A stretch of 64,000 bases of DNA. Source: Sulfuriroseicoccus oceanibius. GTDB taxonomy: Bacteria; Verrucomicrobiota; Verrucomicrobiia; Verrucomicrobiales; SLCJ01. This document shows, piece by piece, positions 25,655 through 38,988 of the stretch. Numbering within the stretch: position 1 is the first letter of the stretch; every line of letters begins with the position of its first letter. The notes beneath the pieces are model-generated. The model saw only the letters and a list, made by a program, of their open reading frames with translations, did not search any database and was not told the origin of the DNA. Position numbers and translations under genes: made by a program. The DNA lies in NCBI RefSeq assembly GCF_010681825.2, contig NZ_CP066776.1, positions 682,001-746,000 on the forward strand, given 5' to 3'.

Positions 25655-27640
25655 ATGAACACAGATATTCTTTCTACTGCTGCAAACCAAGCCCGCGGGC
25701 TTGCCATCGATGCCGTGCACGCCTGCTCGTCCGGTCACTTGGGTCTTCCCCTTGGCTGCGCTGAAATCGGTGCCGTGCTTTTTGGTGAGGCGCTGCAGTT
25801 TGATCCGTCGGCTCCAAAGTGGGTCAACCGCGACCGCTTCGTGCTGTCGGCCGGTCACGGGTCGATGTTCCTTTACAGCTGGCTGCACCTGGCTGGCTAC
25901 GATCTTCCGTTGGATGAAGTGAAGGCATTCCGCCAGCTCGGTAGCAAGACCCCGGGTCACCCTGAGAACTTTGAAACCGTCGGCGTGGAAGCCACCACCG
26001 GTCCACTCGGCCAGGGCGTGGGCAACGCGGTCGGATACGCATTGTCCGGCAAGATGGCTGCCGCTACCTACAACACCGCAGACCACACCATTCTCGACTA
26101 CCACGTGGTCGCACTCGCCGGTGACGGCTGCTTGCAGGAAGGTGTCGCTCGTGAGGCTGTCGCATTTGCCGGCCACAACAAGCTCGACAACCTCATCCTG
26201 ATCTACGATTCAAACGACGTCACCCTCGACGCGATGGCCGATGTCACCCAGTCGGAAGACACCGCCGCTCAGTACGAGTCGATGGGCTGGGATGTGCAGA
26301 CCGTCGACGGTCACGACATGGTCGCGTTCGCCAAGGCATTCCAGGCTGCCAAGGACAACAACAACGGCAAGCCAAAGCTCATCATCGCCAAGACCGAGAT
26401 CGGTCGCGGGATCTCGCAGGTCGCTGGCACTGCTAAGGCCCACGGTGAAGGTGGCGCCAACTTCGCCGACGAAGCACACGCCGCTCTCGGACTGCCAGCA
26501 GGTGAAACCTTCTACGTGTCGCAGGACGTGCGCGACTTCTTCGCCAAGCGCGCCGAAGAGCGTGCCGCTCAATTCGCCGAGTGGGAGAAGACCTTCGACG
26601 CTTGGACCGAAGCCAACGAAGAGCTCGCCTGCCAGTTCGGCGATGCACTCGCCGGTGCGGTGCCATCCGACATCCTCGAGCAGATTCCTGAGTTCGGTGA
26701 AGATTACAACGGTGCCACCCGTGCAGCGGGCGGTGACGTGATCCAGGCAGTCGCCAAGGCGGTGCCTCACTTCATCACCGGCTCGGCCGACCTCTACGGC
26801 TCGACCAAGAACTACATCAAGGACGGCGGCGACTACAGCGACGGCAATCCAACCGGCCGCAACATCTGGTACGGTATCCGTGAGCACGCCATGGGCGCGA
26901 TCATGAACGGTATCGCCTACGACGGCATCTGGCGCACATCGGGCGCGACCTTCGCGGTCTTCGCCGACTACCTCCGTCCGTCGATCCGCATCGCGGCTCT
27001 GGCCAAGTTGCCAGTGGTTTACATCTTCACCCACGACTCCGTGGGCGTGGGCGAAGACGGCCCAACCCACCAGCCGGTGGAAACCTGCTCCGGTCTGCGC
27101 GTGATCCCGAACCTCGATGTGATCCGTCCTGGCGATCCGGAAGAAACCGCAGGTGCCTATGCTGCAGCCATGCTCCGCACCGACGGACCGACTCTTCTAT
27201 TGCTCAGCCGTCAGAATGTGAAGACGCAGAGCCAGATCCCGGCGAAAGATCGCCGCGTGGGCGCGGAGAAGGGCGGCTACATCGCACGCAAGGAAAGCGC
27301 TGCGTTGGAGACCATCCTCATCGCCACCGGCTCGGAACTCGACCTGGCAATGCAGGCCGCCGAGCAACTCGGTGCCGGCACCCGCGTCGTCTCGATGCCA
27401 TGCATGGAGCGCTTCGACCGCCAGAGCGCCGAGTACCGCGAAAGCGTGCTCCCAGCGGCATGCACCAAGCGCGTCGCTGTCGAAGCCGGTGTCTCCGGCC
27501 TCTGGTGGAAGTACGTCGGCACCGCCGGACAGGTGGTCGGCATCGACCGCTTCGGCATCAGCGCCCCGGGCAACACCGTCTTCTCCGAACTCGGCATGAC
27601 CGTCGATAACATCGTCGAAACCGCCAAGTCCCTCGGCTAA
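25655..27640 (+). CDS. tkt: Transketolase
   Basis: A 661-residue thiamine-diphosphate enzyme of the pentose phosphate pathway. N-terminal pyrimidine-pyrophosphate domain: [67 protein letters not shown], and the ThDP/Mg motif [35 protein letters not shown]. Middle domain: [31 protein letters not shown] (catalytic Glu in REHAM), [19 protein letters not shown]. The C-terminal domain is complete. Codon use is strongly C-biased compared with neighbours, as for a highly expressed gene. It supplies ribose-5-phosphate, the substrate of the Prs encoded about 7 kb away. Confidence 0.97.
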
Positions 27641-27667: not shown

Positions 27668-27706
27668 TGCCGCATCGCCTGTCACGGGCGGTGCGGCAAT
27701 TTTTTT
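27668..27706 (+). terminator. Intrinsic terminator of tkt
   Basis: 12-bp stem (27668-27679 / 27688-27699, one G-U pair) with an 8-base loop and seven T (27700-27706). The GxxExxY-cassette repeat starts 2 bases after the T-run. Confidence 0.9.
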
Positions 27707-27707
27707 G

Positions 27708-27737
27708 CCACAGATGGGCGGGGATGGGCACAGATGC
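27708..27737 (+). repeat. Left inverted repeat of the GxxExxY cassette
   Basis: A 30-base sequence, CCACAGAT at its left end and GATGGGCACAGATGC at its right end. It matches the reverse complement of 28213-28242 at 27 of 30 positions. It overlaps the start codon of the GxxExxY gene (ATG 27724), so the repeat encodes the protein's first residues. Confidence 0.9.
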
Positions 27738-28164
27738 GTTTTGGTCTGACTTTTATTCTAAGGGAGGCGGGCGTTCTGGCGTCTTTTGGGATGTGAGCAG
27801 AGGCGACCCGGAGAGTTATGCTGTGATTGGGGCTGCGATGGAGGTGCAAAACCATCTTGGGCGCGGGTATTTGGAGAGGGCGTATCAGGAAGCGTTGGAG
27901 ATCGAGTTCATTGAAAGGAAGATCCCCTATCAGCGCGAGGTTGCTGTTACTCTGCATTACAAGGGGCGTCAGTTGGGGGCGCCGTACCGAGCCGACTTCG
28001 TGTGCTACGGATCTCTGCTGGTTGAGTTGAAGGCGATCCCAAGGTTGGGGGATCGGGACAGAGCACAAATGCTTCATTACCTCAAGGGGACCAAGATCGA
28101 GCGAGGGTTACTGATCAACTTCGCCAGCGATCGGCTTGAGTATGAACGATATATTCTCAGCTGA
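27724..28164 (+). CDS. GxxExxY protein (PD-(D/E)XK nuclease-like)
   Basis: A 146-residue protein of the GxxExxY family, which belongs to the PD-(D/E)XK nuclease superfamily. The name-giving motif is Gly48-x-x-Glu51-x-x-Tyr54 (GYLERAYQEAL). The nuclease-core residues are also present: Asp91 in YRADFV and Glu101-Leu-Lys103 in LLVELKAI. After it comes a Gln-helix region DRAQMLHYLKGTKIERGLLINFASDRLEYER. No function has been established for the family. The ATG at 27724 lies inside the left inverted repeat; the frame is open to 27667, but that part is the tkt terminator. The gene sits between 30-bp inverted repeats and looks like a transferable unit. Confidence 0.88.
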   Translation: MGTDAFWSDFYSKGGGRSGVFWDVSRGDPESYAVIGAAMEVQNHLGRGYLERAYQEALEIEFIERKIPYQREVAVTLHYKGRQLGAPYRADFVCYGSLLVELKAIPRLGDRDRAQMLHYLKGTKIERGLLINFASDRLEYERYILS

Positions 28165-28212
28165 ATCCTCAGAGCAAGCAAGGTGCGCGGTTTTGCTTTC
28201 AAGTCACTCAAA

Positions 28213-28242
28213 GCATCTGTGCCCATCTGCGCCGATCTGTGG
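28213..28242 (-). repeat. Right inverted repeat of the GxxExxY cassette
   Basis: Starts GCATCTGTGCCCATC and ends GATCTGTGG on the plus strand. It is the inverted partner of 27708-27737 (27/30) and is identical over 30/30 bases, and over six further flanking bases, to the copy at 29808-29837. Confidence 0.9.
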
Positions 28243-28496
28243 CTCTGAGAAAAACCGTGATAGGCAATTTCTGGGATACGGTGGCGGTTTCAGGCGGAAC
28301 CTCTTGGAATCCCTTCATTCGGGAAAATCTGCGGGAATTGGTGGAGGCGGGGTGAAATGGCTTGTCGATGAGCTGTCGGGTTTGCAGAGTGTCGCGAATG
28401 GTTAGAAATTATACGTGTCCCGGTTTTAGTACGAGGCTATTGGGGTCGCAGTGGTTGGCGGTTCGTTACAGTGAGTGTGATTAGTTGCTGCTTGTT
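28243..28496. other. Intergenic region between GxxExxY cassette and orphan gene
   Basis: No convincing gene. A frame from GTG 28257 to 28355 would encode a 32-residue peptide (FWDTVAVSGGTSWNPFIREN...) that reads like a real protein fragment but has no start context. The base composition shifts from GC-rich to AT-rich towards the right end, where the orphan gene begins. Confidence 0.5.
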
Positions 28497-29807: not shown

Positions 29808-29837
29808 GCATCTGTGCCCATCTGCGCCGATCTGTGG
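29808..29837 (-). repeat. Third copy of the GxxExxY cassette repeat (right-end type)
   Basis: Identical to 28213-28242 over all 30 bases, and over the next six (CTCTGA), in the same orientation. Together with the gene remnant it marks the right end of a decayed cassette. It ends 39 bases from the ABC-F stop codon. Confidence 0.9.
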
Positions 29838-38675: not shown

Positions 38676-38687
38676 GTGGGGGGATGG

Positions 38688-38988
38688 AACCACAGAGGCC
38701 GCAGAGAGCACAGAGGAATTGTTTGGAAAGAGGGGATGTCGCGAGGCTGCTGCTCTTCTAGTACCCTGAGTCAGGTTCGTGGTCGCTCCGACGGATTGAA
38801 TGGCGCCGGGGACGTTGAGCTATCCGCAGATGGTATTGCTTCTAACTACAAAACAATCTGTGGAATCCGCGTAATCTGCGAATGGCCAAAAGCGACCACG
38901 GGTAGTGTGGTTGAAACCACAAAGGGCACGAAGCACACGAAGGATTTGAAGGAGGGGGATCCTTTGCGTCTTTGCGGCTCTGCGTGAG
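38688..38988. repeat. Dispersed repeat block with CACAGAG / CACGAAG modules
   Basis: Contains ACCACAGAGGCC...GCACAGAGGA (38688-38716), GAATCCGCGTAATCTGCG (38863-38880), ACCACAAAGGGCACGAAGC (38916-38934) and CCTTTGCGTCTTTGCGGC (38961-38978). These are tandemly biased, palindrome-like intergenic modules. The second recurs near 14.6 and 49.1 kb. No gene fits in this 350-base gap. Confidence 0.6.

Follow-up and report, generated by a model that had tools for sequence, protein, structure and literature searches.

The window analyzed here is a 64,000-nucleotide stretch of the Sulfuriroseicoccus oceanibius genome (NZ_CP066776.1, positions 682,001 to 746,000). Behind the tkt gene it contains a small gene of the GxxExxY family set between two inverted repeats (Table 1). 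The left repeat directly adjoins the T-run of the tkt intrinsic terminator, and the original prediction had the element in this position. The 30-bp inverted repeats it described at 27708-27737 and 28213-28242 are real, and are the core of 34-nt arms that are 88% complementary and separated by 469 nt. Local alignment of the two arms scores 26. The highest control scores were 19 among 960 dinucleotide-shuffled versions of arms from every locus tested, and 16 in 126 neighboring ORFs. The start of the gene is uncertain because, besides the in-frame ATG at 27724, a GTG at 27793 yields a protein of ordinary length. A start codon inside the left repeat, as predicted, is therefore available but not assured, and it is not general among the loci; at other GxxExxY loci the arm mostly stops well ahead of the conserved domain of the gene. 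In the one genome of the same genus, no such element follows tkt, a comparison that had been proposed along with the prediction. G001 was considered as an empty tkt site and set aside, since synteny with it stops at tkt and the comparison is uninformative.

Table 1. Features of the tkt-downstream locus and of related repeats elsewhere in the window.
Feature	Position	Strand	Remarks
tkt	end at 27640		
tkt intrinsic terminator	27669-27706	+	GC-rich stem and T-run; from sequence
Left inverted repeat	27707-27740	+	three ~10-bp units, GCCACAGATG GGCGGGGATG GGCACAGATG
GxxExxY / PDDEXK_3 gene	27724-28164	+	stop codon 28162-28164
Right inverted repeat	28210-28243	-	opposite orientation, head outward
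Third repeat copy, gene-less	29808-29837	-	~37 bp identical to right arm
Gene-less triple-unit repeat cluster	38686-38988	.	alternating: CACAGAG >, CGCAGAT <, CACGAAG >, CGCAAAG <

The assignment of the gene to the GxxExxY family was correct. The protein matches TIGR04256 (E=1e-37, 129 bits against a cut-off of 35) and PF13366, PDDEXK_3 (E=2e-34, 119 bits against 22), and it is an ordinary member of the family by score and by motifs. It holds all residues of the GxxExxY, D, ExK, and QxxxY motifs; across 203 proteins, the conservation of these residues is 87-100%. No match to an HUH (Y1_Tnp) domain or another recognized transposase was found; PF13366 and TIGR04256 are the only hits. No relative came up when PDB sequences were searched with the family profile. 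The structure model (pLDDT 95.6) has its best PDB match in SSO0001 (E=2e-4), a Cas4 protein, followed by LHK-Exo and lambda exonuclease, and it weakly resembles the homing endonuclease domain of I-Bth0305I. The model has the structural core of the PD-(D/E)XK superfamily, and the protein is a predicted nuclease with a conserved active site. GxxExxY proteins share with the Cas4, lambda exonuclease, and RecB-type nucleases both the fold and the set of E, D, ExK, and QxxxY motifs. They differ in being much smaller (a domain of ~115 aa), in having no fixed partner gene that we noticed, and in having dispersed cognate repeats. We found neither a role nor a repeat association for GxxExxY in 5.39 million open-access papers, a corpus in which the family name occurs twice, at least once incidentally, and the Pfam number in one paper, on algae. 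A 16-letter stretch of the repeat likewise had no match in the open-access literature. Priority in the literature for the link between GxxExxY and the repeats is not certain.

Flanking inverted repeats are common at GxxExxY genes. The genome of S. oceanibius has seven such genes and all seven are flanked by inverted repeats, every one of a different sequence; five are clearly above the controls and two (L002 and L003) are weak. Across the order (57 relatives and S. oceanibius itself), 69% of 96 testable loci have arms that reach the threshold score of 18, compared with 0.2% of shuffles and none of 126 neighboring ORFs. The ~30% without detectable repeats, which count against a general gene-repeat system, include many from one subfamily. 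GxxExxY is present in 172 of 289 genomes of a phylum sample, and in a phylum-wide draw 86% of 29 loci have flanking inverted repeats. We also collected named loci from public contigs; these cover mainly the focal subfamily because the query was a three-row alignment of that subfamily. Flanking repeats occur at 66 of these 78 loci, from ~17 phyla; among 167 control ORFs, 2 have them. The arm sequences have a period of 9-10 bp. Chance repeats are ruled out by the shuffles, the neighboring ORFs, and reversed-pattern controls. Two loci are of interest for their surroundings. On a Sphingomonas plasmid (L288, ~1450-1910), the GxxExxY gene lies between fabD and fabG and has CGCGAAG-type inverted repeats. 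At L053 (raw coordinates 1428-1475), an arm lies inside the apparent signal-peptide coding region of a neighboring gene, where translation by eye gives an in-frame hydrophobic stretch.

The repeat consists of three units of 9-10 bp, for example AACCACAGAT-GGACACAGAT-AAACACAGAT. In the focal repeat, the units are 10 bp long (GCCACAGATN-NGCGCAGATN-NNCACAGATR), the head of the repeat being constant and the spacer letters variable. It is not restricted to the focal gene. A genome-wide search for further copies, as the original prediction had proposed, found 21 with up to three mismatches, two of which are the gene's own arms; the reversed control had none. The third copy in the window and the ~18 beyond it are absent from the original prediction. 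In 464 kb of the genome, from stretches picked partly for containing repeat copies, the scores are sharply two-humped: 22 copies match at least 20 of 25 positions, none match 18-19, and the reversed control has no copies. Copy counts of the non-focal repeats derive from stretches and patterns. Gene-less repeats occur as singles, as arrays, and, often, as palindromic doublets of ~85 bp with heads outward and diverse spacers; head-out is the most frequent arrangement (14 of 27 adjacent pairs). The four classes in the gene-less cluster of Table 1 are all other than that of the focal repeat. The doublets are clearest in G006, where gene-less copies of 81-93 bp consist of a repeat, a 20-30-bp spacer unique to each copy, and a second, inverted repeat, with both heads pointing outward. 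The only gene-bearing element of that genome has doublet arms identical in type, with the gene forming the loop. Two further repeat structures were seen. An extra family with a 9-bp period, CTCACGCAGAGACGCGAAGACGCAGAG, is found in S. oceanibius at C1:61917, 66846, 80214, 92399, 471749, and other places, and has matching arms at none of the seven GxxExxY genes there. A tandem array in another genome (G004:C81:1305-2126) has a period of 347 bp; its repeats share one orientation and are separated by truncated GxxExxY fragments. It is probably a decaying element.

The distribution of repeats among genomes points to a link with the gene. Among 54 related genomes, 14 contain the CRCAGAT triple and nine contain the CRCAGAG triple, and the controls had none. 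The original prediction had counted repeats unrelated to any GxxExxY gene against itself. For the two classes tested this was not seen: they are in 18 of 38 genomes with a GxxExxY gene and in none of 16 without, figures that are suggestive only because a single genus supplies many of those 16. CRCAGAT repeats occur in seven of eight genomes with the cognate gene and in three of 46 without it (p=5e-6, the gene's own arms counted), and all seven hold copies away from the gene. The three genomes (G001, G016, and G032) that have CRCAGAT repeats although no locus read in them holds a cognate gene argue against a gene-repeat system.

The sequence of the repeat varies between paralogs and tracks the protein subfamily across phyla, a pattern absent from the original prediction. 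Classes were read from the arms (CAGAT, CAGAG, AGGATT, CTRAT, CRAAG, CRAAA, and others). The nearest protein of less than 80% identity carries the same class in 123 of 143 cases, where 41 are expected, and in 59 of 78 cases, where 13 are expected, if the test is confined to the phylum sample. Protein and repeat distances are correlated (Mantel r 0.66; permutation maximum 0.12). Changes of class on the protein tree number 17, compared with 67 after shuffling (minimum 61). The CRCAGAT repeat is found in 62 of 66 named relatives of the focal subfamily, from at least 15 phyla including Verrucomicrobiota, Pseudomonadota, Chloroflexota, and Spirochaetota. Compared locus by locus, mean identity to the named set and mean repeat similarity are uncorrelated (rho 0.03), a value of little weight because it averages across a homogeneous set. 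Inheritance at orthologous sites plays a part within genera and does not readily explain the agreement across phyla. Either gene and repeat travel jointly or their matching is maintained.

Comparison of sites between close relatives showed that occupancy by the gene varies from one congener to another. At L040 of G020, the congener G048 (flanks 85-90% identical) is without the gene and the left arm and keeps the right arm. At L083 of G048, it is G020 in which other sequence occupies the place of the gene and left arm, and a remnant of the right arm stays. The element at L053 of G028 was seen in ~4 of 25 genomes from its genus and is apparently broken in one of them. Gene-less versions of that site retain one arm in G013; in G341 one arm persists along with the outer end of its partner, and this site looks like a deletion scar and not a pre-insertion site. 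We found no target-site duplication at the compared sites, which retain a repeat arm, and no clean empty site free of repeat remnants among the sites with close flanks. Thus, the original view of the gene and its ends as a mobile unit holds insofar as the unit is recurrent, but a single ~535-bp insertion with target duplication is not supported, since no duplication was seen and one arm can persist where the gene is missing. A different kind of change is found between pheS and pheT (both inferred from end and start sequences), where L070 and L074 have flanks that are 94% identical, proteins that are 55% identical, and differing repeat sequences. This is either replacement of the cassette or very fast joint change. 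Occupancy of the pheS-pheT site by GxxExxY is retained across genera, which suggests long vertical retention; a host function is therefore possible.

The closest known parallel is with REPINs, as defined in PMC8049555, and RAYTs, which are held to disperse REP repeats (PMC3733652, PMC8049555). The original prediction had drawn this parallel, with an unrelated enzyme in place of the RAYT, and the architecture matches. Common to both are scattered short repeats, inverted doublets with a highly diverse spacer, several lineages per genome, and an enzyme gene between its cognate repeats, as found in G006. The differences are in the enzyme and the repeat. RAYTs are HUH/Y1 transposases, whereas GxxExxY proteins are PD-(D/E)XK nucleases by fold. 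RAYT-associated REPs are tagged single palindromes, whereas GxxExxY repeats are three direct units of ~10 bp that are palindromic only as a doublet. Tagged REPs are known from this superphylum, where GTAG and CGTC palindromes are tied to tyrosine transposases (PMC3733652); neither tag occurs in the GxxExxY arms. RAYT-like genes of these same genomes bear other repeats. Five Y1_Tnp (RAYT-like) genes, at L347, L348, L349, L351, and L353, lie between their own long palindromic inverted repeats. The element also resembles S23 intervening sequences, which are units of ~500 bp with inverted ends around a gene of ~120 aa. That protein is a four-helix bundle unrelated to GxxExxY and encoded in 23S rRNA, while the focal element belongs to another family and lies behind tkt; the S23 arms have a 7-nt period and the GxxExxY arms one of 9-10. 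S23/TIGR02436 genes are found in S. oceanibius itself (L029-L035), four of the seven with inverted repeats around them, and represent a second protein family of like architecture. An insertion sequence would have terminal inverted repeats together with a target-site duplication, and a transposase; here there are inverted repeats, no duplication was seen at the compared sites, which keep a repeat arm, and the focal element has no recognized transposase.

The nuclease-like gene and its repeat probably constitute a previously unrecognized selfish or mobile DNA system, because the repeat sequence follows the nuclease subfamily and not the host, the gene lies between copies of the repeat, and the repeats are scattered gene-less. 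Our preferred explanation, to which we give a probability of roughly 0.6, is that GxxExxY genes and triple-unit repeats are the two halves of one selfish, REPIN/RAYT-like system. The chief alternative is homing, in which the nuclease would cut gene-less repeat copies and double-strand-break repair would insert the gene, with the arms serving as homology and the repeats spreading by other means. Retention of a cognate arm at gene-less sites fits with this, as do the exchange of cassettes at the pheS-pheT site and the weak fold similarity to I-Bth0305I. The natural empty site for homing would be a doublet, however, and the compared sites carry a single arm, with G341 resembling a deletion. Homing alone also leaves the dispersed repeats with their diverse spacers unexplained. 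The homing-only alternative ranks close behind the best explanation, and we regard it as rather unlikely.

Two other explanations appear improbable. The nuclease might serve the host in DNA binding or repair, with the dispersed repeats as binding sites and the inverted repeats autoregulating the gene or processing its transcript. Genes kept across genera between operon partners (fabD-fabG in Sphingomonas; pheS-pheT) would suit such a function, and several elements sit right behind terminators. Patchiness among congeners, several paralogs and repeat classes per genome, and one gene-repeat pairing across phyla would not. Nor do the mismatches in the arms have an RNA-strand bias (109 vs. 105), thus giving no sign of RNA-stem selection; as neither strand has an excess of G-U among them, an intervening-sequence-like RNA-stem model was also rejected. 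Least probable of all is that another enzyme of the same genomes, a RAYT/Y1 transposase, moves the repeats and that GxxExxY genes are passengers trapped between copies. Y1_Tnp genes are common in these genomes, with seven in S. oceanibius, and dispersal of REPs is the role in which RAYTs are held. This explanation is nonetheless unlikely because the RAYT-like loci read bear other palindromes: none of the 10 Y1_Tnp loci read has the triple-unit repeat and most are accompanied by their own long palindromic repeats. A repeat class that tracks the protein subfamily is also not expected of a passenger.

From the observed co-association and co-variation of gene and repeat, we infer that the nuclease moves the repeats. 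In the two-part selfish system that we favor, a small nuclease with a Cas4/lambda-exonuclease/RecB-like fold and an intact active site would recognize its cognate repeat, perhaps with one repeat unit per helical turn. It would cut at the repeat, possibly in hairpin or single-stranded repeat DNA exposed during replication. Cutting would lead to copying of the doublet, whether or not the gene forms its loop, by the host repair or replication machinery. In this scheme the gene would be autonomous, and the doublets that lack it would be its non-autonomous derivatives. A broader form of this reading is that the system is an independent counterpart of REPIN/RAYT, in which Cas4/lambda-exonuclease-type nucleases of many phyla each recognize and disperse their own three-unit repeat, the doublets being both non-autonomous mobile DNA and the cradle of the nuclease gene. 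We consider the case for this to be evenly balanced.

If true, the system would account for a large class of the repeats interspersed in genomes of environmental bacteria and would bring a second enzyme type, unrelated to RAYT, into bacterial repeat dispersal. GxxExxY is a widespread family, and a candidate cognate DNA for each subfamily gives a testable enzyme-substrate pair. The way in which repeat unit and protein co-vary in nature would then be a readable specificity code.
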